Shown here: one piece after another, positions 31,873 to 59,473 of the stretch
Layout of the letters: every line of letters begins with the position of its first letter
How positions within the stretch are numbered: the first letter of the stretch is position 1
DNA from: Aequorivita vladivostokensis
Lineage (GTDB): Bacteria; Bacteroidota; Bacteroidia; Flavobacteriales; Flavobacteriaceae
Direction of reading: 5' to 3'
Assembly: GCF_000952855.1 (NCBI RefSeq)
Contig: NZ_JSVU01000003.1
Location: forward strand, 186,001 to 250,000
DNA: 64,000 bases
The notes under the pieces: model-generated
The model's database searches: none
What the model was told of the DNA's origin: nothing
Seen by the model: only the letters and a program-made list of their open reading frames with translations
Translations under genes and position numbers: made by a program

Positions 31873-31915
31873 TGATATAAGTCATTAATTGTCAGGTAAA
31901 CATTTCGTATCTTTA
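31873..31915 (+). promoter_or_regulatory. CRP/FNR-type box and -7 element of the PepSY-like gene
   Basis: TGATATAAGTCA (31873-31884) fits TGAY-N4-RTCA. TATCTTTA (31908-31915) fits TAnnTTTG with one mismatch; centre-to-centre 33 bp. Predicted transcription start about 31919, 16 bp before the ATG. Confidence 0.6.
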
Positions 31916-31934
31916 ACAAATAACGATAAAAACT

Positions 31935-32381
31935 ATGAATATGAAAAAATTGACATTAGTACTTTTCGCAATGCTTGCCACGGTGGCAATGAATGCGCAG
32001 GATTTAAAATCGAGCGAAGTTCCAAAAAGTTTTACCGAAGGTCTTTTAAAGGTCTATCCTAACGCTACCGATATTGAATGGGAAAGAAGCGGAACGGATT
32101 ATAAAGTAGAGTTTGAAGTTGGCAAAATGGAGCACGAAATATGGTTCAACAAAGACGGCAATATGGTAAAAGTGGAAAAAAACATTACACGAGCCCAGAT
32201 TCCAGCAAATTTAATGGAAATCATAAAGAGAGATTATCCCAACTATAAAATTGACTCCGTTGAATCCGTAGAAAAAGGAGGAGATACAACTTTTGTAGTT
32301 GAATTGGAAAAAAGCTGGAACGAAAGTATTGTAATTACCTTCAACACAAATGGGCAGATTTTAAAGGCTATGCGCGACTAA
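31935..32381 (+). CDS. Exported PepSY-like (DUF2874) protein
   Basis: A 148-residue periplasmic protein: signal peptide MNMKKLTLVLFAMLATVAMN, then two PepSY-like/BLIP-fold halves with the pattern YPNATDIEWERSGTDYKVEFE and YPNYKIDSVESVEKGGDTTFVVELE. Members inhibit or bind unknown partners. It has its own FNR-type promoter and a strong terminator, so it is a single transcript inside the stress run and, by its promoter, belongs to the low-oxygen regulon. Confidence 0.87.
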   Translation: MNMKKLTLVLFAMLATVAMNAQDLKSSEVPKSFTEGLLKVYPNATDIEWERSGTDYKVEFEVGKMEHEIWFNKDGNMVKVEKNITRAQIPANLMEIIKRDYPNYKIDSVESVEKGGDTTFVVELEKSWNESIVITFNTNGQILKAMRD

Positions 32382-32408
32382 ATTCATAACCGTAAATTTA
32401 AAATTGAA

Positions 32409-32436
32409 GGGGTTGAATTATTTCAGTCCCTTTTTT
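32409..32436 (+). terminator. Terminator of the PepSY-like gene
   Basis: GGGGTTGAA, loop TTAT, TTCAGTCCC (nine pairs, two G-U) and a run of six T. Confidence 0.88.
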
Positions 32437-32496
32437 AATAGGAAAAATTGAAGTCCATTAATTCCAAAAAAGATCAACCATTAAAAAATTGTCACT

Positions 32497-33570
32497 ATGA
32501 ATACAACATTAAAAAAACTAAAGAATATATATTCTGAAAATTGCATTACCATAATCCTAAATACCCACAGAACCAAACCGGGATACCTAAAGGACGAATT
32601 AACCCTTAAAAATCTAATAAAAGAAGCCGAAGACAGGCTTATGGCAGATACTTCAAAAAGGGATGCCACCGCTCTGGCAGACAGGCTAAAAACACTTGCC
32701 GCGCAGATTGACCATAGCCATAACCTAGAAAGTTTGTTGCTTTTCGTAAATCACGACATCGCCGAATTTACACGACTACTCATACCGGTAACAGACCGCG
32801 TTATAATTGACAACACCTTTGCCACCAGAGATTTGGTGAGGGCCATGCATATTGAAGCCAACTATTATGTACTGGTTTTGAGCCAGGACAAAGTTCGGTT
32901 GATAGAGGCAATGAACGACAAGGTGGTAAAGGAGTTTGGGTCGCCGTTTCCTATGCAAAACACCCAATTCGATAATATAAACACCATGGAACCTGTGGTT
33001 TCTTCCAGGCAGCGCAATCTGATTGCCGAGTTCTTTAACAGGGTGGATAAGGAAGTGAATGCCATAAGAAACCAGAACCCGCTTCCGGTCCTGATCTGTA
33101 CGGTAGGGGAAAATTATCCCGAATACCTGAAGATCGCCGATCAAAAGGACAGCATTTTCGATATCTTTTTAAATAACAACAGAATTGCCGACAAGGCCCA
33201 AGCGATTGTATCTGATGCCTGGAAAATAATGGAAGCCCATATCAAAGAAAGAAATACGGAAAGAAAATCAGAATTGCTGAAAGCGGTTACCCACAACAAA
33301 TTTTTGAGCGATACTAATGAAATTTTCAAGGCGATCAATGAAGGTCGAATCCAGACGCTCTTTGTAGAAAAAGGCCTGTTCCAACCGGCAGTTTTGGAAA
33401 ACGGCAAAATTAGATATGTATCAGTTGCCGAACGAAATGACAAGGATGTGATTGATAATATATATGACGAAATGATTGAGATGAACATGGATTTTGCCGG
33501 CGATGTAGTCTTTCTTCCGAAGGGAGAATTGGCAAAATTCAACGGCTTTGGAGCTATAACGAGATATTAA
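32497..33570 (+). CDS. baeRF-family protein (bacterial aeRF1/Pelota homologue, Balon-like)
   Basis: A 357-residue soluble protein. The pattern of an N-terminal alpha/beta domain (ITIILNTHRTKPGYLKDELTL, where baeRF proteins start with a TxYL-like strand), a central RNase-H-like domain (HIEANYYVLVLSQDKVRLIEA near 128-148; LPVLICTVGENYPEYLKIA near 196-214) and a C-terminal eL30-like domain (GRIQTLFVEKGLF near 285-297; end FNGFGAITRY) matches the bacterial archaeo-eukaryotic release factor families. No GGQ motif is present, so peptide release is not expected. Balon of Psychrobacter, from such a family, binds idle ribosomes during stress. The neighbours are stress genes. Family call moderate, hibernation role inferred. 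Confidence 0.7.
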   Translation: MNTTLKKLKNIYSENCITIILNTHRTKPGYLKDELTLKNLIKEAEDRLMADTSKRDATALADRLKTLAAQIDHSHNLESLLLFVNHDIAEFTRLLIPVTDRVIIDNTFATRDLVRAMHIEANYYVLVLSQDKVRLIEAMNDKVVKEFGSPFPMQNTQFDNINTMEPVVSSRQRNLIAEFFNRVDKEVNAIRNQNPLPVLICTVGENYPEYLKIADQKDSIFDIFLNNNRIADKAQAIVSDAWKIMEAHIKERNTERKSELLKAVTHNKFLSDTNEIFKAINEGRIQTLFVEKGLFQPAVLENGKIRYVSVAERNDKDVIDNIYDEMIEMNMDFAGDVVFLPKGELAKFNGFGAITRY

Positions 33571-33582
33571 GAAATGTAAGAA

Positions 33583-34395
33583 ATGAAAGATTCTAAAAAA
33601 CTGATTGTAATTACCGGAGGCGCCGGAGGCATAGGTCAAGCTTGTGCAAAAGCCTTTAAGGACCAGCCTATAATCCTAACCGATTATTCGCAGGAAAAAG
33701 TGGATGAAGCCGTAGCAAAATTTTCAAAGGAAGGTTTTGATGTTTCGGGGATTGCCTGCGATATAACCGATAAGAACGATATAAAAAAACTGACGGACTA
33801 CGTTGCCCAAAAAAGCCGCTTAAAAGCCCTGGTCCATACCGCCGGCGTTAGCGGAACGGTAAAGGACATCAAAAAAGTATATACCATAGATTTGGTGGCG
33901 ACTGAACTTTTGATTGATGCTTTTTACGAACTTGCCAACACGGGCTCGGTTGCAATTTTGCTTTCTTCCATGATGGCACACACGGTGCCCGAAAACAAGG
34001 AATACGACGCGGCGCTCACAAACCCACAGGCATCGGGTTCTTTTGAAACCGTAGCCAAATTTGTGAATGACGATTCCGACACTATGTACAATTTCGCTAA
34101 ACGGGGCGTGCAACTGCTCACCCATAAAAACGCCGATAAATGGGGAGAAAAAGGAGCCAGAATTGTATCGGTCTCGCCCGGAGTTATTGAAACCCCAATG
34201 GCGCTAAAAGCCGCAGAGGAACATCCCGAAAGAATGGATATGATTAAACAGGCCACTCCCCTAAAACGCAACGGACAGCCCGAGGACATCGCCGACGTAG
34301 TCCAATTTTTGGCGAGTGATGCCGCACGCTTTATTACAAGTACCGATATTTTGGTGGATGGCGGCGTGGTCCATAATATTAAAAAAATGGCATAA
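33583..34395 (+). CDS. Short-chain dehydrogenase/reductase
   Basis: A 270-residue Rossmann enzyme: TGGAGGIGQACAKAF near residues 10-24 binds NAD(P), SS of ILLSSMMAH is the catalytic serine block and YNFAKRG the YxxxK pair near 167-173, with PGVIETPM following. The C-terminal FLASDAARFITSTDILVDGG is typical of classical SDRs. Substrate unknown. It follows the baeRF gene after 12 bp and is likely co-transcribed. Confidence 0.92.
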   Translation: MKDSKKLIVITGGAGGIGQACAKAFKDQPIILTDYSQEKVDEAVAKFSKEGFDVSGIACDITDKNDIKKLTDYVAQKSRLKALVHTAGVSGTVKDIKKVYTIDLVATELLIDAFYELANTGSVAILLSSMMAHTVPENKEYDAALTNPQASGSFETVAKFVNDDSDTMYNFAKRGVQLLTHKNADKWGEKGARIVSVSPGVIETPMALKAAEEHPERMDMIKQATPLKRNGQPEDIADVVQFLASDAARFITSTDILVDGGVVHNIKKMA

Positions 34396-34468
34396 TGGTA
34401 TTTTGGAAGGGCGCAAGAAAATTAAATGCCTATTTGCGAATTTAACTTAACAATTAAAAAATATAATT

Positions 34469-35107
34469 ATGGAAACATCATTTTTAAAGAGCTTAAAACA
34501 AACCATTAAACACTGGTATATTCCGTTGCTCGTGGGTATTTTCTTTGTGGTGGTTAGCATCGTGGTATTTTCCTCGCCCGCGGGTTCGCTCGTGGCCTTA
34601 TCGTTGCTGTTTGCCCTTTCCTTTTTGTTCAGCGGCCTGTCTGAAAGCCTATTCGCGCTTGCCAACAAGGACCATTTGGACAACTGGGGTTGGTCCCTCG
34701 CATTAGGCATTATCACGTTGATTGTAGGATTTCTATTACTCTTAAATCCCGCTTTGTCGTTGACCGTACTGGCTTTCTATATCGGTTTTGTAATTCTCTT
34801 CCGCTCCATTTCCACAATCGGCTTTGCCATAGATGTCAAAAAATATGGCAGCAAAAATTGGGGCGGTCTTTTGGTATTGGGCATAATCGGTACAATTGTA
34901 TCATTCATCTTGATTTGGAATCCGTTATTCGCAGGCCTCAGTGTTGTAATTTTAGTAGCGCTAAGCTTCCTGTTTGCAGGACTTTTCAGCATTCTATTGG
35001 CTTTTCAATTGAGAAAACTCCACAAATCTTCCAAAAGAATATCAGCCAATTTGGTAGAACGGTATGATGCGATTGTGAAAGAAATCCGTGCCGAGTGGGA
35101 TGATTAA
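34469..35107 (+). CDS. HdeD family (DUF308) membrane protein
   Basis: A 212-residue protein with six helices arranged as three similar hairpins (YIPLLVGIFFVVVSIVVF; GWSLALGIITLIVGFLLLLNP; GGLLVLGIIGTIVSFILIWNP), the DUF308 repeat. HdeD in E. coli supports acid resistance at high cell density; here it is one of several stress genes in a row. Its C-terminal tail is basic and cytoplasmic. Confidence 0.9.
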   Translation: METSFLKSLKQTIKHWYIPLLVGIFFVVVSIVVFSSPAGSLVALSLLFALSFLFSGLSESLFALANKDHLDNWGWSLALGIITLIVGFLLLLNPALSLTVLAFYIGFVILFRSISTIGFAIDVKKYGSKNWGGLLVLGIIGTIVSFILIWNPLFAGLSVVILVALSFLFAGLFSILLAFQLRKLHKSSKRISANLVERYDAIVKEIRAEWDD

Positions 35108-35177
35108 TCATTAGTTTAACAATTTTTGAAATATGTAGAATTTTGACAGCTTTTTTGAAACCCATTTATCACGTTTT

Positions 35178-39425: not shown

Positions 39426-39468
39426 TGATATTTATCATTTTATATTAAATGCTTCAAAAGTACTTTTG
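39426..39468 (+). promoter_or_regulatory. CRP/FNR-type box and -7 element of hemN
   Basis: TGATATTTATCA (39426-39437) is a perfect palindrome and matches the core of the E. coli FNR site. TACTTTTG (39461-39468) is a perfect TAnnTTTG -7 element. Centre-to-centre 33 bp; a transcript start near 39472 would put the box at about -41.5 and leave a 16-nt leader. Confidence 0.75.
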
Positions 39469-39487: not shown

Positions 39488-40852
39488 ATGCAAAACAGTT
39501 TAGTTTCAAAATATAATGTCGCGGGCCCGAGATACACGAGTTATCCAACGGTTCCCTATTGGAATAATGAAGGTTTTTCCCTGAATGAATGGAAAAAAGG
39601 GGTAATGCAGAGTTTTTCGGAGAGCAACTCCAAAGAAGGCATAAGTCTATATATTCATCTGCCCTTCTGCGAAAGTCTTTGCACTTTTTGTGGCTGCAAC
39701 AAGCGCATTACAAAAAACCATAACGTAGAAACCCCCTATCTCGAATCGGTTTTAAAGGAATGGCGGCTTTATTTGGAAATGTTCCCCGAACGCCCAATTA
39801 TAAAGGAATTACATCTTGGCGGTGGCACGCCTACTTTTTTTTCTGCCGAAAATTTAAGACTGCTCATAAAGGGAATTTTTCGCGACGCCACCATGGCCGA
39901 AAATCCCTCCTTCAGTTTTGAAGGCCATCCCAACAATACCAAGGGCGACCATCTACAGACGCTTTACGATTGCGGTTTTACCCGTGTAAGCTATGGCGTG
40001 CAGGATTATAATCCCACGGTGCAAGTAGCCATCCATAGGCTGCAACCCTTTGTAAACGTAAAAAATGTAACCGAAACCGCCCGCGAAATTGGCTACACTT
40101 CCGTAGGCCACGACATTATTTTCGGGCTTCCCTTTCAGAAAAAGGAACACGTTATTTATTCCATAGAAAAAACCAAGGAATTGATGCCAGACCGCATTGC
40201 CTTCTACAGCTACGCCCACGTGCCGTGGATAAAAGGAAATGGCCAGCGCGGCTTTAAAGAGGAAGATTTGCCCAGTGCCGCAGAAAAGCGCGAAATGTAC
40301 GAAACCGGCAAAAAAATGCTGGAAGAGGCTGGTTATATTGAAATCGGGATGGACCACTTTGCCCTTAAAACCGATAGCCTCTACCAAGCCGTGGAAAGCA
40401 AAAAACTGCACCGCAATTTTATGGGCTATACCGATAGCAAGACCCAACTCATGCTGGGGCTTGGCGTTTCTGCCATTGGGGACAGTTGGTACAGTTTTGG
40501 TCAAAATGTGAAAAACGTAGAGGAATATCAGGAATTGGTGGAGCAAAATATTATTCCTGTATATCGCGGACACATCCTGAATGCTGAGGATTTAATTATC
40601 CGCAAACACATTCTCAATATGATGTGCAAGCTGGAAACTTCTTGGGAAGAAAAGGCCATGCAATTTGAGGAACTGCCCGAAGCACTTTCCAAACTCAAGG
40701 AAATGGAAGACGACGGCCTGGTAAAAGTAGGTTCCAATCAACTTCAGATTACCGAAAAAGGAAGGCCTTACGTGCGAAACATCTGCATGGCGTTTGATGT
40801 GCTCCTGCAACGAAGCCAGCCCGAAACACAGTTGTTTTCAATGACGGTTTAG
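39488..40852 (+). CDS. hemN: Oxygen-independent coproporphyrinogen III oxidase
   Basis: A 454-residue radical-SAM enzyme. The cluster motif is CESLCTFCGCN (CxxxCxxC) near residues 61-71, preceded by LYIHLPF, and GGGTPTFF follows near 110. It converts coproporphyrinogen III to protoporphyrinogen IX without O2, which is the haem route needed for cbb3 oxidase and cytochromes at low oxygen. HemN rather than HemW is supported by the length and the N-terminal YNVAGPRYTSYP (start of true HemN). It has its own FNR-type promoter. Confidence 0.95.
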   Translation: MQNSLVSKYNVAGPRYTSYPTVPYWNNEGFSLNEWKKGVMQSFSESNSKEGISLYIHLPFCESLCTFCGCNKRITKNHNVETPYLESVLKEWRLYLEMFPERPIIKELHLGGGTPTFFSAENLRLLIKGIFRDATMAENPSFSFEGHPNNTKGDHLQTLYDCGFTRVSYGVQDYNPTVQVAIHRLQPFVNVKNVTETAREIGYTSVGHDIIFGLPFQKKEHVIYSIEKTKELMPDRIAFYSYAHVPWIKGNGQRGFKEEDLPSAAEKREMYETGKKMLEEAGYIEIGMDHFALKTDSLYQAVESKKLHRNFMGYTDSKTQLMLGLGVSAIGDSWYSFGQNVKNVEEYQELVEQNIIPVYRGHILNAEDLIIRKHILNMMCKLETSWEEKAMQFEELPEALSKLKEMEDDGLVKVGSNQLQITEKGRPYVRNICMAFDVLLQRSQPETQLFSMTV

Positions 40853-40888: not shown

Positions 40889-40931
40889 TGACTTACGTCA
40901 TATTTTACCGCAAACACAATACTGACCTTTG
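40889..40931 (+). promoter_or_regulatory. CRP/FNR-type box and -7 element of the nirK operon
   Basis: TGACTTACGTCA (40889-40900) and GACCTTTG (40924-40931, one mismatch to TAnnTTTG), centre distance 33 bp. The predicted start near 40935 is 22 bp before the ATG at 40957. Confidence 0.7.
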
Positions 40932-40956: not shown

Positions 40957-42240
40957 ATGAAGGTTTCAAAAAGTGTGTTTCTCTTCCTACTGTTACTTAG
41001 TTTCACCAAGGGATTTTCACAGTTTACCATTGACGCCGAATTGCGTCCCCGCTTTGAATACAGGCACGGTTACAAAACCCTCTTTCCAGATAATGCAGAC
41101 CCCGCGACCTTCGTTTCGCAGCGCACGCGATTGAACTTCGGTTACAAAACCGAAAAACTTCATTTCTATTTAAGTCCCCAGGACGTGAGGGTTTGGGGCG
41201 ATGTGCCACAGCTGAACGTTGCAGACGAAAACGGATTTTCATTGCACCAAGCCTGGGCAGATGTCTTGTTGATTTCAGACCTTTCCCTAAAAATTGGCCG
41301 CCAGGAAATTATATACGATGACCAGCGTTTCTTCGGAAATGTGGGTTGGGCACAGCAAGGCAGAAGCCACGATGCCGCTATTTTAAAATATGAACCCAGC
41401 TTTTTGAAGTTTCATTTTGGTGCGGCATACAATCAGGATGGGGAAGCCTTGACTGGAAATATGCTTACCACAAATACCTATAAAAGTCTTCAATATCTAT
41501 GGCTTCACAAGGATTGGGAGCAACTTTCGGCGAGCTTCCTATTTGTGAACAATGGTTTGCAATATATAGACGAAATAGACGAATCAAAAAACGATACGCG
41601 CTATAGCCAAACTGCGGGACTTCATTTAAAGGCTAATTTGAGTAAATTCAATTTTGCCTCAAATCTTTACTATCAATTCGGGAAGGACGTGGCAAATAAT
41701 GATTTGAGCGCTTACCTCCTTTCACTTGAAGCAAATTATTCCGCATTGGAAAGTTTAAAAATTGGCTTAGGCGGCGAGTTGCAGAGCGGAAATGATTACG
41801 GCGCCACTTCCGATGGAGAAAACAAAGCTTTTAACCCATTGTATGGTACCAATCATAAATTTAATGGGTTTATGGATTACTTCTATGTAGGCAACCACAT
41901 CAACAATGTAGGCTTGCTGGACTTATATGGAAATATGAAATATGCTTTCAATAAACAGTCTAACGTTCAATTGGCACTTCATCAGTTTTTCGCTGCCGCG
42001 GAAATAGATGACAATACGTCAAAAGATTTGGGCTTTGAATTGGATTTGGTAACTTCGCACAAATTGAGCCAATTCGTGGGTATCCAAGCTGGGTATTCAC
42101 ACTTTTTTGCGGCAGAAGGTATAGAAATCGTAAAAAATAATTTTGACAAGAATACAAATAACTGGGGCTGGTTAATGGTGACCATAAACCCTGTACTATT
42201 CACTTGGCAAAAACCCGAAACTGATAATAATAACCAATAA
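40957..42240 (+). CDS. Outer-membrane beta-barrel, alginate-export-like (PF13372)
   Basis: About 427 residues from ATG 40957: signal peptide MKVSKSVFLFLLLLSFTKGFS, then repeated amphipathic strands of a barrel with ELRPRFEYRHGY, RTRLNFGYKTEKLHFYLSPQDVRVWGD (in part) and LKIGRQEIIYDDQRFFGNVGWAQQ, the Alginate_exp pattern. First gene of the nirK operon, so a role as porin or channel for nitrite or copper is more likely than alginate export. The longer frame to 40888 overlaps the FNR box. Confidence 0.85.
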   Translation: MKVSKSVFLFLLLLSFTKGFSQFTIDAELRPRFEYRHGYKTLFPDNADPATFVSQRTRLNFGYKTEKLHFYLSPQDVRVWGDVPQLNVADENGFSLHQAWADVLLISDLSLKIGRQEIIYDDQRFFGNVGWAQQGRSHDAAILKYEPSFLKFHFGAAYNQDGEALTGNMLTTNTYKSLQYLWLHKDWEQLSASFLFVNNGLQYIDEIDESKNDTRYSQTAGLHLKANLSKFNFASNLYYQFGKDVANNDLSAYLLSLEANYSALESLKIGLGGELQSGNDYGATSDGENKAFNPLYGTNHKFNGFMDYFYVGNHINNVGLLDLYGNMKYAFNKQSNVQLALHQFFAAAEIDDNTSKDLGFELDLVTSHKLSQFVGIQAGYSHFFAAEGIEIVKNNFDKNTNNWGWLMVTINPVLFTWQKPETDNNNQ

Positions 42241-42267: not shown

Positions 42268-43734
42268 ATGAAATTAGTTATCAAACAAAAATTAATTACC
42301 AATATGCTTCTGGGCCTTGGCGCGGTGGCATTTCTTTCGGGCTGCGTAAACGACCAGTCAGACAAAAAATATAACGATACGGTGGAAATTCCCGTAAATC
42401 AGGAAATGATTGCGGAACTTACCTCCCCACCCAACGTACCTACTCCCGTAGGAAAACGAATGGCCAAAAAACTAATCGTGGACTTGGAAATTCAAGAACG
42501 TGAGGGCGAAATGACCAATGGCGTAAAATATGTTTATTGGACTTTCGGGGGAACTGTTCCAGGAAGTTTTATCAGAACCCGCGTGGGCGACGAGGTGGAA
42601 TTTCACCTGAAAAATCACCCGGACAACAAACTTCCGCACAACATTGACCTTCACGCTGTGAATGGTCCCGGTGGTGGTGCAGAATCTTCATTTGTAGCTC
42701 CCGGCCACGAAAAAGTATTCTCCTTTAAGGTGCTTAACCCAGGTCTTTATGTGTACCACTGTGCTACCGCGCCCGTGGGAATGCACATTGCCAACGGAAT
42801 GTACGGGCTTATTTTGGTAGAGCCGGAAGGTGGCTTACCTCCAGTGGACAAAGAATATTATATTATGCAGGGTGATTTCTATACCGAAGGCAAATACGGC
42901 GATCGTGGCCTACAGGCGTTCGATATGCAAAAAGCCATCGATGAAAAGGCAGATTATGTGGTATTCAATGGTCACGTAGGTGCAATGACAGGCGACAATG
43001 CCATAACCGCGAAGGTTGGTGAAAAAGTCCGTCTTTTTGTTGGAAATGGCGGGCCTAACTTGGTTTCTTCATTCCACGTTATTGGAGAAATTTTTGACAA
43101 AGTATATGTGGAAGGCGGTGACTTAGTAAACGATAATGTACAGACAACACTAATTCCTGCGGGTGGCGCGGCAATTGTGGAGTTCCGCGTGGATGTTCCC
43201 GGTACATTTATACTTGTGGACCACTCCATTTTCAGAGCCTTTAATAAAGGTGCTTTGGCTATGTTGAAAGTAGAAGGTGAAGAAGACAAGCGTATCTATT
43301 CTGGTGAAATTCACGATGGAATTTACCTGCCGGAAGGTGGAGCTATCCAGTCTATGCCAAACGGAGCGAGAAAAGAACCCAAGGAAGAAGTAAAAGCCTT
43401 AAGTTTTGAGGAGCGTATGACCTTTGGTAAAGATAAATATATGGCTACTTGTTCTGCATGTCACCAAGCTGATGGTAAAGGTATTGAAAACGCCTTTCCT
43501 CCATTGGCAAATTCAGACTATTTAAATGCTGATGTGGACAGGGCTATTGATATTGTTTTGCACGGAAAATCGGGCGAAATAACCGTAAACGGCAAAAAAT
43601 ACAATAGCGTAATGACTGCTCAGGCACTTACAGATGAAGAAGTATCAAACGTACTTACTTACGTTTATAATAGTTGGGGCAACTCCAAAAAAGAGGTTAC
43701 TCCAGAAATGGTTAAAGCCGTTAGAAATAAATAA
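42268..43734 (+). CDS. nirK: Copper nitrite reductase NirK with C-terminal cytochrome c domain
   Basis: A 488-residue lipoprotein (LSGC, Cys near residue 26). Two cupredoxin domains span about 70-210 and 215-350; type 1 and type 2 copper ligands are seen in [15 protein letters not shown] (catalytic Asp and His), [11 protein letters not shown] (His, Cys, His/Met) and SSFHVIGE (His). A class I cytochrome c domain follows from about 385 with CSACH near 406-410. It reduces nitrite to NO in the periplasm, and the tethered haem probably delivers electrons. Second gene of the operon. Confidence 0.96.
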
Positions 43735-49525: not shown

Positions 49526-51727
49526 CTATTCGTTTTTAGCCGAAGCATCTTCGGTGTTCTGTACTTTAATATCGGTTCCCAAACGTTGCAGATAAGCAAT
49601 AACGGCAACTATCTCACGGTTTTTCATTTCTACAAATGCTTCCCCATTTTCCTCAGCGTATTTCTTGCTGGCTTCATACGTAGCCACAAAATCTGGATCG
49701 CTGTATAGATTCTGTTCAATTTTTGCACCTTGCTCATCCATCCATTGTTGCGCATTCGCTATTTCCTCTTCGGTATAGGGAACTCCCAAGGTTACCATCG
49801 TGCGCATTTTTGTTTCGGTGTCTGATTTATCCAATTCTGAATTTATCAACCATTTATAGGAAGGCATAATTGAACCTGAGGAAGTACTCTGCGGATCGTA
49901 CATATGGTTCAAGTGCCAGTTATCTGAATACTTTCCACCCACGCGATGCAAATCAGGACCGGTACGCTTACTTCCCCATAGGAATGGGTGATCGTATACA
50001 TATTCCCCAGATTTTGAATACTCGCCATAACGTTCCACTTCACTTCTAAATGGTCTAATCATCTGCGAATGGCAGCCTACGCAACCTTCACGGATATAGA
50101 TATCCCTACCTTCCAATTCCAAAGGTGTGTATGGTTTCACACTTGAAATTTTCGGCACATAATCATCTACCATTAGCGAAGGTATAATTTGCACCATACC
50201 TCCAATTAAAATGGCGATGGTTGCGTAAATAGTTAATTTAACAGGGCGACGCTCAAGCCAAGTGTGCCAACCTTCGCCGGCAGTCTGCCTTTTCGTTACC
50301 GGCGCAAGTGGCGCAGCTTCGGCCAATTCATCAGTAACCTTGCTACCTTTTCTTGCCGTCATTACAACGTTATAAAGTAAAATGAAGGCTCCCGTAATAT
50401 AGAGCGTTCCACCTATGGCGCGCATCCAGTACATTGGGATAATTTGGGTAACGGTTTCCAGGAAGTTTCCGTAGGTAAGCGTACCGTCTGGGTTGAATTG
50501 GTTCCACATAGAAGCTTGCATAAAACCTGCTACATACATAGGAAGGGCATACATTATAATACCTAATGTTCCAATCCAGAAATGGGCGTTTGCCAATTTC
50601 ACGGAATATAATTTTGTTTTGAAAAGTCGCGGTACCAACCAATAGATCATACCAAAGGTCAGGAATCCGTTCCAGGCCAGTGCCCCAACGTGAACGTGGG
50701 CAATAATCCAATCGCTAAAGTGGGCAATTGCATTTACGTTTTTAAGCGAAAGCATTGGACCTTCAAAAGTTGCCATCCCGTAACCGGTAATTGCCACTAC
50801 CATAAATTTCAATACGGGGTCAACCCTTACTTTATCCCAAGCGCCCCGTAGGGTTAAAAGCCCGTTTATCATACCTCCCCAAGAAGGAGCAATAAGCATT
50901 ACGGAAAACGCAACGCCCAGGTTTTGGGCCCATTCCGGCAGTGCGGAATACAACAAGTGGTGTGGTCCGGCCCAGATATAAATAAAAATCAACGACCAAA
51001 AGTGTACAATGGATAGTCGGTAGGAATATACCGGCCTATTGGCCGCTTTCGGCACAAAATAATACATTAAACCAAGGAAAGGCGTGGTAAGGAAGAACGC
51101 AACCGCATTATGCCCGTACCACCATTGCACCAGCGCATCCTGTACACCGGAATACATGGAATAACTCTTCAGAGCGTTCACCGGAATGGCCATACTGTTC
51201 ACGATATGCAAAACAGCTACGGTTACCCAAGTTCCCAGATAGAACCACAAGGCAACGTATAAATGGCGTTGGCGCCTTTTCACCATAGTCATAATTAGGT
51301 TGATACCAAAAGCAACCCAGATTATTGCGATGGCAATATCAAATGGCCACTCAAGCTCCGCATATTCCTTTGAAGTTGTGTAGCCCAATGGAAGCGTTAT
51401 CGCAGCGCCAACAATGATCGCCTGCCAACCCCAAAAGTTTAGGTTACTTAGAAAATCACTCCACATTCGCGCTTTTAGCAAACGCTGGGTGGAATAATAA
51501 ACCCCTGCAAAAATGGCGTTACCCACAAAGGCGAAGATCACCGCGTTTGTATGCAGCGGACGTAAACGCCCGAAACTGAGCCACGAAATACCATCGGTCA
51601 GGTTTGGGAACAAAAACATAAAAGCGAGCAATAAGCCCACGCTCATACCAATGAGGCCCCAAAAAATGGTTGCATTGATGAATTTTTTGACAATCTGGTT
51701 GTCGTAGTAAAACTGTTCTGTTTGCAT
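49526..51727 (-). CDS. ccoN: Fused cbb3 oxidase subunits I and II (CcoN-CcoO)
   Basis: A 733-residue fusion. Residues 1-480 are CcoN with about 12-14 helices and haem-copper signatures RLRPLHTNAVIFAFVGN near 35-51, WWYGHNAVAFFLTTPFLG near 205-222 and HVHVGALAWNGFLTFGMIYW near 343-362; residues about 500-733 are CcoO with helix near 495-515 and a haem c site CVGCHSQMIRPF near 548-559. Such fusions are typical of Bacteroidota. It reduces O2 at high affinity and pumps protons. Confidence 0.96.
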   Translation of the reverse strand: MQTEQFYYDNQIVKKFINATIFWGLIGMSVGLLLAFMFLFPNLTDGISWLSFGRLRPLHTNAVIFAFVGNAIFAGVYYSTQRLLKARMWSDFLSNLNFWGWQAIIVGAAITLPLGYTTSKEYAELEWPFDIAIAIIWVAFGINLIMTMVKRRQRHLYVALWFYLGTWVTVAVLHIVNSMAIPVNALKSYSMYSGVQDALVQWWYGHNAVAFFLTTPFLGLMYYFVPKAANRPVYSYRLSIVHFWSLIFIYIWAGPHHLLYSALPEWAQNLGVAFSVMLIAPSWGGMINGLLTLRGAWDKVRVDPVLKFMVVAITGYGMATFEGPMLSLKNVNAIAHFSDWIIAHVHVGALAWNGFLTFGMIYWLVPRLFKTKLYSVKLANAHFWIGTLGIIMYALPMYVAGFMQASMWNQFNPDGTLTYGNFLETVTQIIPMYWMRAIGGTLYITGAFILLYNVVMTARKGSKVTDELAEAAPLAPVTKRQTAGEGWHTWLERRPVKLTIYATIAILIGGMVQIIPSLMVDDYVPKISSVKPYTPLELEGRDIYIREGCVGCHSQMIRPFRSEVERYGEYSKSGEYVYDHPFLWGSKRTGPDLHRVGGKYSDNWHLNHMYDPQSTSSGSIMPSYKWLINSELDKSDTETKMRTMVTLGVPYTEEEIANAQQWMDEQGAKIEQNLYSDPDFVATYEASKKYAEENGEAFVEMKNREIVAVIAYLQRLGTDIKVQNTEDASAKNE

Positions 51728-51985: not shown

Positions 51986-52028
51986 CAAAAATATTATTGC
52001 AAACGCCCTTAAAATATGACATTCGTCA
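51986..52028 (-). promoter_or_regulatory. CRP/FNR-type box and -7 element of ccoS-ccoNO
   Basis: On the minus strand TGACGAATGTCA (52017-52028) and TATTTTTG (51986-51993, a perfect TAnnTTTG), centre distance 33 bp; start near 51982, 14 bp before the ATG. The box begins 4 bp before the fixI stop. Confidence 0.78.
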
Positions 52029-52031: not shown

Positions 52032-54440
52032 TTACTTATTTATATTCGTTCTTAATTTCTTTCCCGCATATTGGGTAGCTATTGTTGTAAAAATAACAAT
52101 ACTTATTGAACTTAGGGGCATCAAAATAGCAGCAACCACTGGTTTTAAATGTCCCGTAACCGCAAATGTCAACCCTATGAGATTGTAAAATAGGGAAAAT
52201 AAAAACGCCCATTTGATAATCTTTATGCCCTTTTTCGAAAAATTCAAAAAATCCCCTATTTTATTAAATCGGGTAGCGTCCAAGATCCCATCGCAAGCCG
52301 GGGAAAAAACGTTTGTGTTTTCCGAAATAACAAAACCTACATTGCTCTGTTTTAAGGCACCTGCATCGTTCAAACCGTCACCAATCATAAGTACCTGCTT
52401 TCCTTTTTGCTGATGTGTTTTTATAAAATTCAACTTGTCGTCCGGTTTTTGGTTGAAATATAGTTTTGTGCCTTTGGGCAGTAATTCTTCAAGCCGTTCA
52501 CGCTCGCCTTCGTTGTCGCCCGAAAGGACAACCACATCTTTATCGGCACCCAATTGTTCAAAAATTTCGGCAACACCATGTCTGTATTCGCTGTTGAATA
52601 TGTAACAACCCTTGTAAACCTGGTTGGCGCTAATATGGACGGTAGTTCTATTTTTTACTTCGGAAGTCAATTCATCATAATATCCCACAAATTCATAGGA
52701 TCCCACTTTTATGGAATTGTTTTTAGCAGTTGCGGAAATCCCCTTCCCTACTTCTTCTTCAAATTCATCCAAGGTTTGGATGTTATTTTTGTCTAGCATA
52801 TTGTAAAGCGAGCGGCTCAAGGGATGGCTCGATGCCCGTAGTGTACTCGTGAGCAATTGCTTTTCTTCCTCTGAAAGCGCAATACCTTCATAGCTAATCA
52901 TATTTTTTTGATTGGTAGTGAGGGTTCCCGTCTTGTCAAATACCACGGTGTCCAGCTTCGCCATTTGTTCGATTACTGAGGCTTCCTTCAAATAGAGTTT
53001 TTCCCTTCCGAAGATGCGCAGCACATTGCCCAAAGTGAATGGCGCAGCAAGGGCAATAGCGCACGGACAGGCCACGATCAAAACCGAGGTAAACACATTA
53101 AAGGCTTTGGAAGGATCGACCACAAGCCAAAAAATGGTAGAAATAAATGCTATGGTAAGCAGAACGACAGTGAATCGTTTGCTGATACTATCCGTAATCG
53201 ATTCAAAAATGCCGGATTTATCCTTGCTGAAAACGTCGTTGCTCCACAGTTGGGTAAGGTAGCTCTGGGCTACGGGTTTCAGAACTTCCACTTCCAAAAT
53301 ACCGGCTTGTTGCTTGCCGCCCGCAAAAAGTTTATCGCCACTCTGTTTTGAAATAGGCTCCGCTTCACCGGTAACAAAACTGTAATCAATGAGTGCATTT
53401 CCCTTAATTAAAATAGCATCTACGGGAATTATTTCGTTGTTGCGAATCAACAAGCGGTCGCCTTTCTGTACGGTATAAACTTCTGCTTGTTCCTCGATGG
53501 TATTTCCTTCAGCATTCTTAAAAAGTCTTGTAACGGCAATTGGGAAATACGATTTGTAATCCCGCTCAAAGGAAAGGTAGCTGTAGGTTTTCTGCTGAAA
53601 AAATTTCCCAAGCAATAAAAAGAAAACCAAGCCCGAGAGACTGTCAAAAAAGCCGGTGCCCAAGTCGAATACTATGTCTATCGTGCTTCGTATAAAAAGC
53701 ACCGCGATGCCCAAAGCGATGGGAACGTCTATGTTTAGGATTTTAGAACGAAGTCCTTTATATGCAGAGGTAAAATACCCGCTTCCTGAGTAAAAGACCA
53801 CGGGCAGCGAAAACGCGAACATCAACCAGCGGAAAAACGGCTTGAATTGGTCCAGCCAGAATTCGGAATGCTCAAAATATTCGGGAAATGAGAGGAACAT
53901 AATATTTCCAAAGGCAAAGCCCGCAATGCCCAGTTTGTAGATCAGGCTTCGGTTGATATATTTTTCCTTTTTTTCGGAATCGTCCAGCGAAATATAGGGT
54001 TCGTAACCTATTCGGCTTAAAAGAACCACTAAATTTTTGAGCGAATTCTCTTCAGCAGAAAAAGTAATCCGTACCGTTTTTTCGGGAAAGTTAACCTGTG
54101 AGGATTTAACGGAAGGATTTAGTTTATTGAGATTTTCCAATATCCAAATGCAACTACTGCAATGGATGGAAGGAATCAAAAAAGAAACAATCTGCATATT
54201 TCCGTCGTTAAATTCCAGCAATTTTTCCACAATTGCCTCATTGTCGAGAAAATCATATTTCCCCGCAATTTCCTTTGGGGAAATGCCGGGCGTATTTTCC
54301 AGATCGTAATAATAGCTTAAATCGTTGTCGTGCAGAATATCAAAAACCGTCTTGCAGCCGTGACAGCAGAAGGATTTATCCTCATGTTTGATTTCAACGT
54401 CCAAACACGCATCACCACAATGGAAACAGTTTACCATCAA
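52032..54440 (-). CDS. ccoI: Copper-exporting P-type ATPase CcoI (FixI)
   Basis: An 802-residue P1B-type ATPase. The N-terminus has a Cys-rich module (CFHCGDAC, CCHGC; residues 5-32), an HMA domain with CSSC near 95-98, the actuator TGEAEP near 345, the membrane CPC in ACPCAIAL near 452 and the phosphorylation site DKTGTLT near 495, ending with GDGLNDAGAL. It moves copper across the inner membrane for cbb3 assembly. It has its own FNR-type promoter upstream. Confidence 0.95.
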   Translation of the reverse strand: MMVNCFHCGDACLDVEIKHEDKSFCCHGCKTVFDILHDNDLSYYYDLENTPGISPKEIAGKYDFLDNEAIVEKLLEFNDGNMQIVSFLIPSIHCSSCIWILENLNKLNPSVKSSQVNFPEKTVRITFSAEENSLKNLVVLLSRIGYEPYISLDDSEKKEKYINRSLIYKLGIAGFAFGNIMFLSFPEYFEHSEFWLDQFKPFFRWLMFAFSLPVVFYSGSGYFTSAYKGLRSKILNIDVPIALGIAVLFIRSTIDIVFDLGTGFFDSLSGLVFFLLLGKFFQQKTYSYLSFERDYKSYFPIAVTRLFKNAEGNTIEEQAEVYTVQKGDRLLIRNNEIIPVDAILIKGNALIDYSFVTGEAEPISKQSGDKLFAGGKQQAGILEVEVLKPVAQSYLTQLWSNDVFSKDKSGIFESITDSISKRFTVVLLTIAFISTIFWLVVDPSKAFNVFTSVLIVACPCAIALAAPFTLGNVLRIFGREKLYLKEASVIEQMAKLDTVVFDKTGTLTTNQKNMISYEGIALSEEEKQLLTSTLRASSHPLSRSLYNMLDKNNIQTLDEFEEEVGKGISATAKNNSIKVGSYEFVGYYDELTSEVKNRTTVHISANQVYKGCYIFNSEYRHGVAEIFEQLGADKDVVVLSGDNEGERERLEELLPKGTKLYFNQKPDDKLNFIKTHQQKGKQVLMIGDGLNDAGALKQSNVGFVISENTNVFSPACDGILDATRFNKIGDFLNFSKKGIKIIKWAFLFSLFYNLIGLTFAVTGHLKPVVAAILMPLSSISIVIFTTIATQYAGKKLRTNINK

Positions 54441-54468: not shown

Positions 54469-54510
54469 CAAAGGTTGCAAGAGATTTGGTTTCGAGAAAT
54501 GACAATTATC
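54469..54510 (-). promoter_or_regulatory. CRP/FNR-type box and -7 element of ccoI (fixI)
   Basis: On the minus strand TGATAATTGTCA (54499-54510) and AACCTTTG (54469-54476, one mismatch), centre distance 32 bp; start near 54465, 25 bp before the ATG. Confidence 0.68.
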
Positions 54511-54556
54511 AGCTTTTATCTTATTCTGTAATAACCGTTCGCACGATTATTTTGCC

Positions 54557-55771: not shown

Positions 55772-55782
55772 GCTTCAAAATT

Positions 55783-55904: not shown

Positions 55905-56630
55905 TTAATTTTTTTTAAGCTTTTTCTCCAAATTCAAGGCTTTTGGAAACAGAATGTTGTTTTCCAAATGCACGTGCTGGTGCAGATCCTGTTCAAATTC
56001 ATCAAGTTTCGCGTAAAAGGCACGATAGGTATTGCAAGCGCCTTGGGGCGGGGTGAAATTGTTACTTAACTTTGCTATATGTCTAAGTATTTCACCGGCT
56101 TCCTCGTGTTCCCCCTCCATCATTTTTATAGGATTTTCAACGGTTCCGAAATGGATTGCAGGAATGTCTCCACCTTCGCGTTCAGCCTTGACCAGCTTTT
56201 TGATAAAGGGGAAAAGAATCAATTCTTCCTTTTTCATATGCGAAGCCAATTCTTGCACAACTTGTTTTACCAAAGCCTCGATTTCTCCAAGTTCGGTATA
56301 ATGATGGCCGTGAACATGGTTTACTCGTTGCGCGTATTGTAACAGCATTGGGCTGTTTTCCTCCACGTAAGTATGGTGTACATTTATAATATGGTCTGTT
56401 AAGAAATCCAGTTTCCAACTGTTGTAGTCTTTGGCCCGGTCCTGTACCGCATCAAGGCTCAAAAGCTCAGCTTCCAGAATAGCGGGATCTATTTTTGCCT
56501 TTTCACAGGCTCTTTTAATGCTAATGCCACCACCACAGCAAAAATCGATGCCGTGCTTTTTGAAAATGTGGGCTGCCTTTATGTTCTCTGTAACCACATC
56601 GGCTACGGTTTTTTCTTGAAGTGTTGTCAT
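55905..56630 (-). CDS. ric: RIC/YtfE (ScdA/DnrN) iron-sulfur cluster repair protein
   Basis: About 241 residues from ATG 56630 (MTTLQEKTVADVVTENIKAA). The ScdA_N domain (about 1-65) has HGIDFCCGGG, and the hemerythrin-like domain (about 80-235) carries the di-iron ligands: HHTYVEENSP, HGHHYTEL, HMKKEELILFPFI and HLENNILFPKA. It repairs Fe-S centres damaged by NO or peroxide. The frame up to 56663 reaches the -7 element, so the later ATG is the start. FNR-type promoter upstream. Confidence 0.95.
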   Translation of the reverse strand: MTTLQEKTVADVVTENIKAAHIFKKHGIDFCCGGGISIKRACEKAKIDPAILEAELLSLDAVQDRAKDYNSWKLDFLTDHIINVHHTYVEENSPMLLQYAQRVNHVHGHHYTELGEIEALVKQVVQELASHMKKEELILFPFIKKLVKAEREGGDIPAIHFGTVENPIKMMEGEHEEAGEILRHIAKLSNNFTPPQGACNTYRAFYAKLDEFEQDLHQHVHLENNILFPKALNLEKKLKKN

Positions 56631-56660
56631 GGTATTTATCTTTTTATGAATAGTATGGGG

Positions 56661-56703
56661 CAAATTTCAGCATAAAATAACACCCAAAATATGACCTAAA
56701 TCA
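56661..56703 (-). promoter_or_regulatory. CRP/FNR-type box and -7 element of ric
   Basis: On the minus strand TGATTTAGGTCA (56692-56703) and GAAATTTG (56661-56668, one mismatch), centre distance 33 bp. Start near 56657, 27 bp before the ATG at 56630. Confidence 0.65.
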
Positions 56704-56741
56704 TAAAAGGATATTTTTATCTTAAAATATTTGAAAAAAGA

Positions 56742-57209
56742 TCAATTCTCCCAAAATGGATCGGAATATTCCGGGGGCGTTTCGGTTTCGGAATGGATTT
56801 CCGCAATTTTTTCAAGTTGGCTTTCGGTAGCCACTTTTTGGATTTCATTGAAGAGGATACGTTCCTCAAAACGAATGTGCGCATCCAGTTCTTCTTCCAG
56901 TTGGCTCAGGGATTTCTCGGGATTGTCTGCTTCTTTAAAAAGCCGTTCCAAGCGCCTGTGTTCCTTCAAGGCGCGCACGATCAACTCATTGTTTTCATCC
57001 AAAACGGGAAAGACATACTTTTCCTCGGCTTCAAAATGTGGCTTTATTTCTTCCTCAAAAAACCAGGCGGCATATTTTTGAAGTCTTTCGGGAGCAACAT
57101 TCTTGCTGAAACCTTTGCGCAATTTCCAACTAAAAAGTAGGCCAAAATGATGCTGGCGGCTCAAGGGCTGCAAGGCTTTGTGTCTTTTAATCGGTTTTTT
57201 CTTTTCCAT
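56742..57209 (-). CDS. Hemerythrin-like (HHE) domain protein
   Basis: A 155-residue helical bundle: LSRQHHFGLLFSWKLRKGF, HFEAEEKYVFPVLDENNE, ALKEHRRLERLF and HIRFEERILFNEI contain the His/Glu ligands of an HHE di-iron site. It probably binds or senses O2 or NO. Its ATG shares one base with the stop of the truncated haemoglobin gene, so the two are coupled. Confidence 0.88.
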   Translation of the reverse strand: MEKKKPIKRHKALQPLSRQHHFGLLFSWKLRKGFSKNVAPERLQKYAAWFFEEEIKPHFEAEEKYVFPVLDENNELIVRALKEHRRLERLFKEADNPEKSLSQLEEELDAHIRFEERILFNEIQKVATESQLEKIAEIHSETETPPEYSDPFWEN

Positions 57210-57601
57210 TATTGAACGTATTTAGAGCCCGATTTCTCACGGATATAATTAATTTTAAACTGAAACATTTCAGCCATCTTTGATGCCCGCCATTTTGCCT
57301 CGTCGGCTATTTCACCCGTAAAATTTTCGTCTATGGTGTCAAACCATAATTGCAGCCACCGGTCAAAGTGTTCTTTATCAATGGGCATTTTTGCGTGCGG
57401 TGGAAATGGACTGCCATAGTAAGTATGCTCACTCAATAAAACAGTCTGCCAAAAAGTGTACATCTTTTGCAAATGTTGCGGCCAGCGGTCTTGGATATTA
57501 CTGTTGAAAATTTCTTTCAGTAGCTTATCCTCTCGTATTTTTCCATAAAAGGAATCTACCAAATGCTTTACGTCATCTAATTTCAGTATATCCTTCGTCA
57601 T
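57209..57601 (-). CDS. Group III truncated haemoglobin
   Basis: A 130-residue 2-on-2 globin. Residues LVDSFYGKIREDKLL carry the B-helix Tyr, FWQTVLLSEHTYYGSPFPPHAKMPI is the CD-E region in blocks (the TFWQ Trp typical of group III) and HFDRWLQLWFDTI holds the proximal His. Likely binds NO or O2. Second gene of the Rrf2-globin-HHE operon (10 bp after rrf2). Confidence 0.92.
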   Translation of the reverse strand: MTKDILKLDDVKHLVDSFYGKIREDKLLKEIFNSNIQDRWPQHLQKMYTFWQTVLLSEHTYYGSPFPPHAKMPIDKEHFDRWLQLWFDTIDENFTGEIADEAKWRASKMAEMFQFKINYIREKSGSKYVQ

Positions 57602-57610
57602 TGTATAATT

Positions 57611-58039
57611 CTAAATTTTCAAAAATGTTTCGCCTTCTTCCAAATTAGCCGCAAGGTTCATCACCAAGGTATTTTCGCACATTTGCTTCAAACCATTCCG
57701 CACGTCCATAAATTGATCGTGAACCGGGCAGGGATGTTCCGATGAGCATTCGCGGAGGCCGAGGCTGCACCCGGTAAAGATTTGGTCACCGTCTATTTCA
57801 GAAACGATATCGGCCAATCTTAAAGTTGAATCCTTTTCCAAATAAAATCCTCCATTCGGCCCCTTCTTGGATAGGATTATTCCGGCCCGCGCCAACTGTT
57901 GGCAAACTTTAGCCGTAAAAGGTTCGGGTGAATCAACTGCTTTGGCTATTTCCGTAATATTGGGGCGCAAATCCTTTTGTGATTGTTTTGCGATAAAGAG
58001 CACCGCCCTTATGCCATATTCACACGCTTTTGAAAACAT
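57611..58039 (-). CDS. Rrf2 family regulator, likely Fe-S/NO-sensing (NsrR-like)
   Basis: A 142-residue winged-helix protein: CEYGIRAVLFIAKQS, VDSPEPFTAKVCQQLARAGI (recognition helix) and GPNGGFYL (wing). Three cysteines lie in FTGCSLGLRECSSEHPCPVH near residues 89-108 (C-x6-C-x5-C), matching an IscR/NsrR-like cluster site. It heads an operon with a globin and an HHE protein, both NO-binding families, so it probably senses NO and controls the operon. Promoter TACTTTTG at 58056-58063. Confidence 0.9.
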   Translation of the reverse strand: MFSKACEYGIRAVLFIAKQSQKDLRPNITEIAKAVDSPEPFTAKVCQQLARAGIILSKKGPNGGFYLEKDSTLRLADIVSEIDGDQIFTGCSLGLRECSSEHPCPVHDQFMDVRNGLKQMCENTLVMNLAANLEEGETFLKI

Positions 58040-58055
58040 ACAGATTTATTTTTTT

Positions 58056-58098
58056 CAAAAGTAAGTAATAACAATTTTATTCAAGGATAAATCTATCT
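58056..58098 (-). promoter_or_regulatory. Promoter of the Rrf2-globin-HHE operon with GATA-N4-TATC palindrome
   Basis: On the minus strand TACTTTTG (58056-58063) is a perfect -7 element. GATAGATTTATC (58087-58098) is a palindrome centred exactly 33 bp upstream, but it does not fit TGAY-N4-RTCA. A TTG in the -33 region lies 18 bp before the -7 box. Confidence 0.45.
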
Positions 58099-58146
58099 TA
58101 AAAAATACCAACCCCCTCTTTCGTTTTGGCAAGCAGGTTGAATTTT

Positions 58147-59415
58147 CTAATTGTGAAAACGCTTTTTAGCCTCGCGCTCCAAGGCTTCCCGATGGTCGGG
58201 ATGGGCAATGGAAATAAGCGCTTTGGCACGTTGCTCCAATCCTTTTCCAAAGAGATTCACCACTCCGTACTCCGTAACCACATAATGCACGTGTGCCCTC
58301 GTGGTTGTAACGCTGGCGCCTTCTTTTAAAAAGGGGGTGATTTTGGAAATGCCTTTATTGGTAATCGAAGGCATCGCAATTATAGGTTTTCCGCCTTCCG
58401 AAAGCGAGGCGCCACGGATAAAATCCATCTGTCCGCCCACCCCAGAATATTGGTACATCCCGATGCTATCGGCACAGACCTGGCCAGTCAAATCAATCTC
58501 AATGGCGCTGTTTATGGCCGTAACTTTCGGGTTTCGGCGAATAATGGCAGTATCATTGGTATAACCTGCTTCCTTGAAATGCACGATCGGGTTGTCGTCA
58601 ATAAAGTCGTATAATTTTTTGGTTCCCATTGCGAAACAGGTAACTATCTTACCCGTTTTTATCTCTTTATCCTCGCCAGTTATAATTCCTTTTTCAACCA
58701 ATGGAAGGATGCCGTCGCTGAACATCTCGGTGTGGATTCCCAATCGTTTATGGTTTCCCAGGTTGTGGAGTACCGCATTTGGAATATTGCCAATGCCCAT
58801 TTGAAGGGTGGCGCCATCCTCGACCAATTCGGCAACGTTTCGGCCTATGGTAGCCTCGATTTCAGAAGTTTCTCCCAAAATTGAAGCATAAATTGGCGTA
58901 TCTATTTCTACTCCAAAATCTACGTTGTTTATGTGAATAATGCCATCGCCGTGGGTTCTCGGAACGTTCGGATTGATGAGGGCAACCACACGTTTTGCAG
59001 TCTGGATGGCGGGCAGGGTAACATCAACTGAAACGCCAAGCGAGCAATACCCGTGCTTATCCGGCGGGGAAACTTGAATGAAAGCTACATCCAACGGTAG
59101 GATGTTTCTTCTGAAAAGCCAATGGATTTCACTTAAAAAGACCGGAATATAATCGCCGTGAATCGTGTTGACACCTTTCCGAACATTATCGCCCACAAAA
59201 CAACTGGAAAGCTTAAATGCCTCAGTGTAAGGCGCTTGGGTGTATTTGGCCTCGCCGTGGGTGTGGATTTGGATTATTTCAACATTTTTCAGCTCGCGAT
59301 AACGCTCACACAAAGTGTCTATCAACAAATTAGGCGTCATTGCCGCGCCCTGAAAAAATACGCGATTATTTGATTTTACTATGGATACGGCCTCTTGGGC
59401 GGAAACGATTTGCAT
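58147..59415 (-). CDS. Acetyl-CoA hydrolase/transferase family enzyme
   Basis: About 422 residues from ATG 59415 (MQIVSAQEAVSIVKSNNRVFFQG). The two CoA-transferase domains show GDGIIHINNVDFGVEID in the first, and GIGNIPNAVLHNL, EAGYTNDTAIIRRNP and HVHYVVTEYGVVNLFGKGLEQRA in the second; the active-site Glu is expected near 240-260. It could cleave acetyl-CoA or move CoA between acids (acetate, 4-hydroxybutyrate). The FNR-type promoter overlaps the alternative start at 59433, so 59415 is right. Confidence 0.88.
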   Translation of the reverse strand: MQIVSAQEAVSIVKSNNRVFFQGAAMTPNLLIDTLCERYRELKNVEIIQIHTHGEAKYTQAPYTEAFKLSSCFVGDNVRKGVNTIHGDYIPVFLSEIHWLFRRNILPLDVAFIQVSPPDKHGYCSLGVSVDVTLPAIQTAKRVVALINPNVPRTHGDGIIHINNVDFGVEIDTPIYASILGETSEIEATIGRNVAELVEDGATLQMGIGNIPNAVLHNLGNHKRLGIHTEMFSDGILPLVEKGIITGEDKEIKTGKIVTCFAMGTKKLYDFIDDNPIVHFKEAGYTNDTAIIRRNPKVTAINSAIEIDLTGQVCADSIGMYQYSGVGGQMDFIRGASLSEGGKPIIAMPSITNKGISKITPFLKEGASVTTTRAHVHYVVTEYGVVNLFGKGLEQRAKALISIAHPDHREALEREAKKRFHN

Positions 59416-59430
59416 AATTTTATTTTTATG

Positions 59431-59473
59431 CAAAGGTTGGTAATCTTATCTGCTTCTAAAATGATTTTAGTCA
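59431..59473 (-). promoter_or_regulatory. CRP/FNR-type box and -7 element of the acetyl-CoA hydrolase gene
   Basis: On the minus strand TGACTAAAATCA (59462-59473) and AACCTTTG (59431-59438, one mismatch), centre distance 33 bp; start near 59427, 12 bp before the ATG. Confidence 0.65.

Follow-up and report, generated by a model that had tools for sequence, protein, structure and literature searches.

The stretch of Aequorivita DNA analysed here (the window; 64 kb, C3:186001-250000 of a 3.27-Mb genome) raises the question of whether seven promoters, among them those of hemN, the nirK operon and the cbb3 oxidase genes, are controlled together, and by which protein. The original prediction, made from the sequence of the window, read their common box TGAY-N4-RTCA and its distance from a -7 element as a CRP/FNR regulon. 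A class II regulon of the CRP/FNR type is also the best explanation of the present results, as the composite of box and -7 element lies in promoters and is kept upstream of hemN in Aequorivita. We put at roughly three in four the probability that the boxes are class II CRP/FNR-family sites and that their activator in Aequorivita is most likely a fusion of a receiver and a CRP domain (receiver-CRP fusion), acting after a FixL/DosP-like kinase. This reading builds on computed results: the box, its fixed spacing, its promoter placement and its conservation upstream of hemN, the targets, the domain architecture of the regulators, and the co-occurrence of composite and regulators.

A box at a fixed distance from the -7 element

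The boxes, -7 elements and genes of the seven promoters are as follows, in window coordinates.

31873..31884, + strand: predicted activator box TGATATAAGTCA, upstream of a PepSY-like gene (ATG 31935)
31908..31915, + strand: -7 element TATCTTTA, centre 33 bp from the centre of the PepSY box
31935..32381, + strand: PepSY-like protein gene (PF11396)
39426..39437, + strand: predicted activator box TGATATTTATCA, upstream of hemN (ATG 39488)
39461..39468, + strand: -7 element TACTTTTG of hemN
39488..40852, + strand: hemN, oxygen-independent coproporphyrinogen III oxidase (TIGR00538 above cut-off)
40889..40900, + strand: predicted activator box TGACTTACGTCA, upstream of the nirK operon (ATG of first gene 40957)
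40924..40931, + strand: -7 element GACCTTTG of the nirK operon
40957..42240, + strand: first gene of the nirK operon, porin-like (PF13372)
42268..43734, + strand: nirK, copper nitrite reductase with a cytochrome-c-like C-terminal part (TIGR02376 above cut-off)
49526..51727, - strand: fused cbb3 oxidase subunits CcoN-CcoO (PF00115 and PF02433)
51986..51993, - strand: -7 element TATTTTTG of ccoS
52017..52028, - strand: predicted activator box TGACGAATGTCA, upstream of ccoS (ATG 51968) and the fused ccoNO
52032..54437, - strand: ccoI/fixI-like copper P-type ATPase gene (PF00122, PF12156)
54469..54476, - strand: -7 element AACCTTTG of ccoI/fixI
54500..54511, - strand: predicted activator box TGATAATTGTCA, upstream of ccoI/fixI (ATG 54437)
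55905..56630, - strand: ric, iron-centre repair (ScdA_N and hemerythrin)
56661..56668, - strand: -7 element GAAATTTG of ric
56692..56703, - strand: predicted activator box TGATTTAGGTCA, upstream of ric (ATG 56630)
58147..59415, - strand: acetyl-CoA hydrolase/transferase gene (PF02550 and PF13336)
59431..59438, - strand: -7 element AACCTTTG of the acetyl-CoA hydrolase/transferase gene
59462..59473, - strand: predicted activator box TGACTAAAATCA, upstream of the acetyl-CoA hydrolase/transferase gene (ATG 59415)

A pattern search returned exactly seven matches to TGAYN4RTCA in the 64 kb, all at these promoters and all on the strands originally predicted; six box positions were also as predicted, while the ccoI/fixI box starts at 54500 and not at 54499. 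The palindromic TGA-N6-TCA geometry is present in all seven boxes, T follows TCA in each, and the base 5′ of TGA reads A, C, G, T, C, A and C. The box centre lies 33 bp from the centre of the -7-like 8-mer in all seven promoters, including the one for which 32 bp had been proposed. The description of the -7 elements as TAnnTTTG-like holds for TTTG, which ends six of the seven (that of the PepSY-like gene ends in TTTA), but only three begin with TA, and several are loose.

The number of boxes is weak evidence, as 2.7 ± 1.7 matches to TGAYN4RTCA (maximum 7) were expected per 64 kb in 60 second-order Markov simulations; their placement is strong evidence. The whole genome was scanned for the box followed by TTTG at 18-34 bp (box end to TTTG), which yielded 63 matches, against 25 for a reversed-pattern control. 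Seventeen of these had a spacing of 27, at 16 distinct boxes (one matched on both strands), six of them inside the window; the remaining 16 spacings gave 46 matches together, a mean of 2.9 (Poisson P = 1.2e-8 for the excess at 27), and the spacing of box and -7 element is very unlikely to be due to chance. With coding defined as inside open frames of 150 codons or more, all 17 matches at spacing 27 were intergenic, the seven at spacing 26 or 28 comprised four intergenic and three coding, and the 39 at spacings outside 26-28 comprised 29 coding, six intergenic and four ambiguous, so that the composite favours promoters over coding sequence, as proposed. Fourteen of the 17 sit in the respiratory region at C3 225-345 kb.

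The genome-wide scan for downstream genes also brought out further respiratory targets. Outside the window, matches at spacing 27 neighbour a cytochrome c gene followed by a COX1-family subunit gene (norCB-like), a cytochrome c gene followed by genes for fasciclin and nos-propeller proteins (nosZ-like), two universal stress protein genes, and genes for an outer-membrane protein, a pyridine-nucleotide oxidoreductase and two products without a Pfam match. A single box at C3:340399-340472, with TTTG at 27 bp on both sides, lies between genes for an MlaE-type permease and a patatin. The predicted target set consists of nirK, norCB-like, nosZ-like, ccoS-ccoNO, ccoI, hemN, ric, cytochrome c and universal stress protein genes.

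The FNR/FixK class II regulons of Proteobacteria have their sites at -41.5, where CRP and FNR sit in class II activation, and include cbb3 oxidase, hemN, nirK, nor and nos genes among their targets. Their anaerobox (TTGAT-N4-ATCAA) has the TGA-N6-TCA geometry in common with the present box, whereas the present promoters are of the Bacteroidota -7 type. In the available text of PMC6847099, -7 elements of F. johnsoniae span -12 to -5; because each of the seven boxes is 33 bp above the -7 centre, it would be centred at -41.5 by this numbering, the class II placement originally proposed. This geometry suggests that class II activation works alike on the unusual Bacteroidota polymerase.

Conservation was compared upstream of hemN in 25 loci from named genomes, namely 19 Aequorivita (including L222, titled Flavobacteriaceae), five other flavobacterial loci and one gammaproteobacterium; the window hemN and its counterpart in Aequorivita aquimaris D-24 share 99% identity. 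The box is located 60-64 bp upstream of the hemN start in 19/19 Aequorivita loci, with TTTG at 27 in 18. When the 19 Aequorivita sequences are stacked, TGA, TCAT and TAnnTTT show no variation (TTTG 18/19) and Y is split about evenly between C and T, against a mean column identity of 0.49 for the 5′ flank and 0.65 for the spacer. The composite occurs at about -105 in Nonlabens ulvanivorans and Flavobacteria bacterium BBFL7, and the gammaproteobacterial locus has a box without TTTG. Spacing 27 was counted 48 times in the 25 loci, which are largely orthologous and thus non-independent, and any other spacing from 12 to 42 at most twice. Chance or AT-richness was ruled out by the spacing, the intergenic placement and this conservation. 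The rival idea that AT-rich Bacteroidota promoters produce the spacing as a side effect, with the palindrome being a chance or unrelated element, agrees with the unremarkable box count (7 against 2.7 ± 1.7) but not with the exact spacing, the intergenic placement and the hemN footprint within a diverged background, and we consider it very improbable; the family-wide counts below also speak against it.

CRP-family proteins of Aequorivita

The regulator gene was predicted to lie outside the window, and this was borne out. Three CRP-family proteins of the genome score above the Pfam cut-offs: A, the 350-residue receiver-CRP fusion (C3:286900-287949, minus strand, about 37 kb beyond the window); B, of 210 residues (C3:337075-337704), with the helix SRVVVSR, in an Mla transporter cluster; and C, of 195 residues (C2:75862-76446), with the helix RVETVIR. 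The recognition helix of the fusion (IATES-LIR) is the closest to that of an FNR-like protein found in many relatives (ATES-AIR), whereas the helix of C (VETVIR) has only E, I and R in common with the fusion and that of B lacks the E. The FNR-like protein itself was not detected in the Aequorivita genome, where the best match of its profile is the fusion (6.6e-37), nor was a cysteine-bearing FNR (4Fe-4S sensor) found there as regulator. Of 375 solved-structure matches to the fusion, the best 60 include none listed with a stretch that spans both the receiver and the CRP part.

The fusion gene is preceded by that of a histidine kinase, with HisKA and HATPase in one piece and PAS in the other. 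In a comparison with solved structures, DosP (2.6e-18) and FixL (4.1e-17 and weaker) match the PAS piece, whose His aligns with the one in the DosP motif RPAHPEY, which we take to be the heme ligand. In 25 of the 30 best-scoring loci, and in 10/30 loci of an earlier, more distant set, a site at spacing 27 begins 14-38 bp after the stop codon of the fusion gene; in the Aequorivita genome, this site precedes a universal stress protein gene. The 30 best-scoring loci used for neighbourhood counts of the fusion gene, and likewise of the FNR-like gene, are not a random draw.

A separate box, TGATATAAATCA, is present upstream of the kinase and receiver-CRP genes at C3:289225 (L035 ~19225-19236), with TTTG at 20 bp instead of 27, and is possibly a sign of autoregulation of another kind.

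In the mechanism that we infer, which comprises DNA binding, transcript starts, oxygen as the signal and phosphotransfer, a CRP/FNR-family dimer would bind TGAY-N4-RTCA(T) centred at -41.5 and contact the Bacteroidota housekeeping polymerase sitting on the TAnnTTTG-like -7 element. Low oxygen would be sensed by the PAS domain of the kinase, sensing would lead to phosphorylation of the receiver, and the fused CRP domain would be activated in turn, so that a single polypeptide would do the work of both FixJ and FixK in the rhizobial cascade. In numerous other members of the Flavobacteriaceae, the FNR-like protein with its conserved cysteines may read the same box, alone or beside the fusion.

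Distribution in the Flavobacteriaceae and the sensed signal

Flavobacteriaceae are widespread. Counts of the composite TGAYN4RTCAT-N26-TTTG were made for 246 genomes of the order and for 179 of the family (nearly one per genus). Five or more matches occur in 142/179 family genomes, with up to 32, against 0.64 to 0.97 per genome for the reversed-pattern control across four groups defined by the presence of the two regulators. Presence of the FNR-like protein was decided by a cut-off in a bimodal gap of E-values (weakest present 1.7e-57, next 2.2e-48), and that of the fusion by a search cut-off of 1e-60 (weakest best match 4.7e-112); G376, with a partial fusion match, was counted as carrying the fusion, and G258 and G275, with FNR-like matches lacking the N-terminus, as carrying the FNR-like protein, which is present in 121/179 genomes at 1.7e-57 or better. 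The mean composite count was 14.6 with both regulators (n = 59), 7.3 with the FNR-like protein only (n = 62), 11.6 with the fusion only (n = 36) and 1.4 with neither (n = 22; control 0.6). The fusion-only and neither groups differed with Mann-Whitney P = 1e-9 for density and 1e-6 for counts in genomes of at least 2.5 Mb. The low controls in every group and the near absence of the composite from genomes with neither regulator further argue against a by-product of AT-rich promoters. With the square root of the count as the response, regression gave t values of 10.8 for the fusion, 5.7 for the FNR-like protein, 4.9 for genome size and 1.0 for C. The composite offers a simple rule for finding the low-oxygen regulon, and the family amounts to a natural experiment: a single regulon goes with two different sensors, and either may be missing.

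In the seven relatives examined, the FNR-like protein has about 228 residues, with an N-terminal CxxC, a Cys aligned with FNR C122, another at position 53 that does not vary, and the recognition helix TATES-xIR, x being mostly A or C; the cysteines were observed in the sequences read, a subset of all 121. Its profile aligns along its own length with Aliivibrio FNR chains (PDB 5e44 and variants; 2.7e-32 and weaker). Like Aliivibrio and E. coli FNR, the protein of the relatives keeps the CxxC and the Cys at the C122 position, but its third N-terminal Cys is replaced, it has the extra invariant Cys53, and it was not found in the window genome. Among the 30 best-scoring loci, 26 had an identified start, and 23 of these have a site at spacing 27 within 400 bp upstream of the FNR-like gene; in 15/26, one box serves -7 elements on both sides. 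In G160, one of the seven, the nearest site is about 800 bp off, beside a second CRP-family gene.

The FNR-like proteins of L126, L127 and L129-L133 combine three of the four FNR cluster cysteines with Cys53, a possible variant cluster site.

The distribution also bears on whether the regulon, though real, is driven here by another CRP-family protein, B or C. B sits in a gene cluster whose first gene has two sites at spacing 27, and it was found in 140/246 genomes of the order at 1e-30. It is nevertheless present without the motif in small genomes (no match in G014, G024 and G031, one in G010 and G022), was not found in the motif-bearing genomes G228 (6 matches) and G244 (11 matches), and rarely has sites near its gene (4/29 loci of relatives). 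C has E, I and R of its helix in common with the fusion, but occurs in only 34/179 genomes and does not predict the composite count (t = 1.0 in the regression); without C, genomes with the FNR-like protein, the fusion or both still have medians of 7 to 13, and it is absent from 22 of the 36 fusion-only genomes. The mismatch between B and the motif and the t value of C ruled both out as general regulators, and control of the present boxes by either appears unlikely. Sites at spacing 26-28 within 1.5 kb of C genes in 9/9 and 12/18 loci of relatives nonetheless weigh on the side of C; there is no such site near C in the window genome or in G264. In the relatives, these sites mostly face the divergent or the next gene, often about 20 bp before the C start, and C may be the neighbour of a regulon member in many of them, or have a local role. 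The enrichment, which is unexplained, would count against dismissing C completely.

Several further points weigh against the fusion and its kinase as the activating relay, or against the regulon as a whole. The kinase frame is interrupted in this assembly by a stop codon between the PAS and HisKA parts (C3 ~288645, minus strand; L035 ~18644-18646), which makes it doubtful that the kinase works in this strain; in G264 (A. aquimaris), the frame runs through. Only 18/30 upstream kinases match a loose heme-PAS pattern, and NCRFLQ, which we take to be the flavin-binding motif of LOV light sensors, occurs in an open frame upstream of the fusion in 6/30 loci (L188, L193, L206, L210, L213 and L214), where it could be a blue-light input to the same relay. 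The 179-genome statistics ignore phylogeny, and the T after TCA was chosen on the Aequorivita genome, so the pattern may favour fusion-bearing genomes. The box differs from the classical anaerobox in lacking the outer T/A, with T following TCA and no preference for T before TGA. No box was found within 300 bp upstream of hemN in two of two Salegentibacter loci and the single Crocinitomix locus, so that the expected conservation upstream of hemN, which held for 19/19 Aequorivita and two of the five other flavobacterial loci, failed in the remaining three.

Some of these points also fit a different signal, with the fusion and the FNR-like protein reading the same boxes in answer not, or not only, to oxygen but to nitric oxide (NO), redox, light or another ligand. 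There is a link to NO in ric, nirK and the nor genes, one of the four cluster cysteines of FNR is missing from the FNR-like protein, and 12/30 upstream kinases fall outside the loose heme-PAS pattern, NCRFLQ being found in the six loci above. The cbb3 oxidase and hemN, on the other side, point to oxygen, and the best matches of the PAS piece of the Aequorivita kinase are DosP and FixL, which sense oxygen through heme; a signal that is not oxygen, or not oxygen alone, is a minority possibility, though one with more to be said for it than control by B or C. For the family, we lean, by a modest margin over even odds, towards a wider picture suggested by these comparisons: part of the Flavobacteriaceae, including Aequorivita, would run an FNR regulon without the FNR-like Fe-S sensor through a one-step relay of FixL-like kinase and receiver-CRP fusion, which reads the same box at exactly -41.5. 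Genomes with both regulators (59/179) would use two sensors on one box, an arrangement also seen in some rhizobia, and some relays may add a LOV light input.

Known systems and neighbouring features

In rhizobia, FixL-FixJ or hFixL-FxkR make FixK, and FixK and FnrN read one anaerobox, according to the accessible part of PMC7888657. The candidate relay resembles these cascades in its FixL-type PAS kinase and CRP-family activator, and in that FixK-type and FNR-type proteins may share a box (PMC7888657, same part); it differs in having receiver and CRP in one protein, and in a genome where the FNR-like protein was not found. A separate FixJ (receiver-LuxR) and FixK were not found in the candidate relay, FixJ not having been searched for elsewhere in the genome. 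The fusion is likely a variant of the FNR/FixK theme and the likely activator in this lineage.

HcpR, DNR and NnrR have related FNR-like boxes, with R180 and E181 as specificity positions (Rodionov 2005, PMC1274295, in the portion available). The fusion, the FNR-like protein and C have E181 with a residue other than R180, and B has V181, in agreement with the half-site rule as given there. The motif of most HcpR2 genomes, Bacteroides among them, is GTAACnnnnGTTAC in the same portion of PMC1274295, and "Flavobacteri" and "Cytophaga" do not occur in the main text of that paper. A Flavobacteriales CRP/FNR homologue has been assigned to carbon sensing, by the available part of PMC8510549. Among the matches listed from the open-licence literature, none describes an oxygen regulon for Flavobacteriaceae, the present motif, or the receiver-CRP fusion as its regulator; a prior description is possible.

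Intergenic boxes without TTTG at 27 bp occur at C3:250510, 271253 and 328643 and may be weaker or repressing sites; they neighbour a cytochrome c/acetate-CoA ligase-like pair, a TetR-family gene and an oxidoreductase gene. Upstream of ric, positions 57209-58039 of the window (- strand) contain a small globin-like gene and a gene for an Rrf2-family regulator, possibly a second, NO-responsive control.

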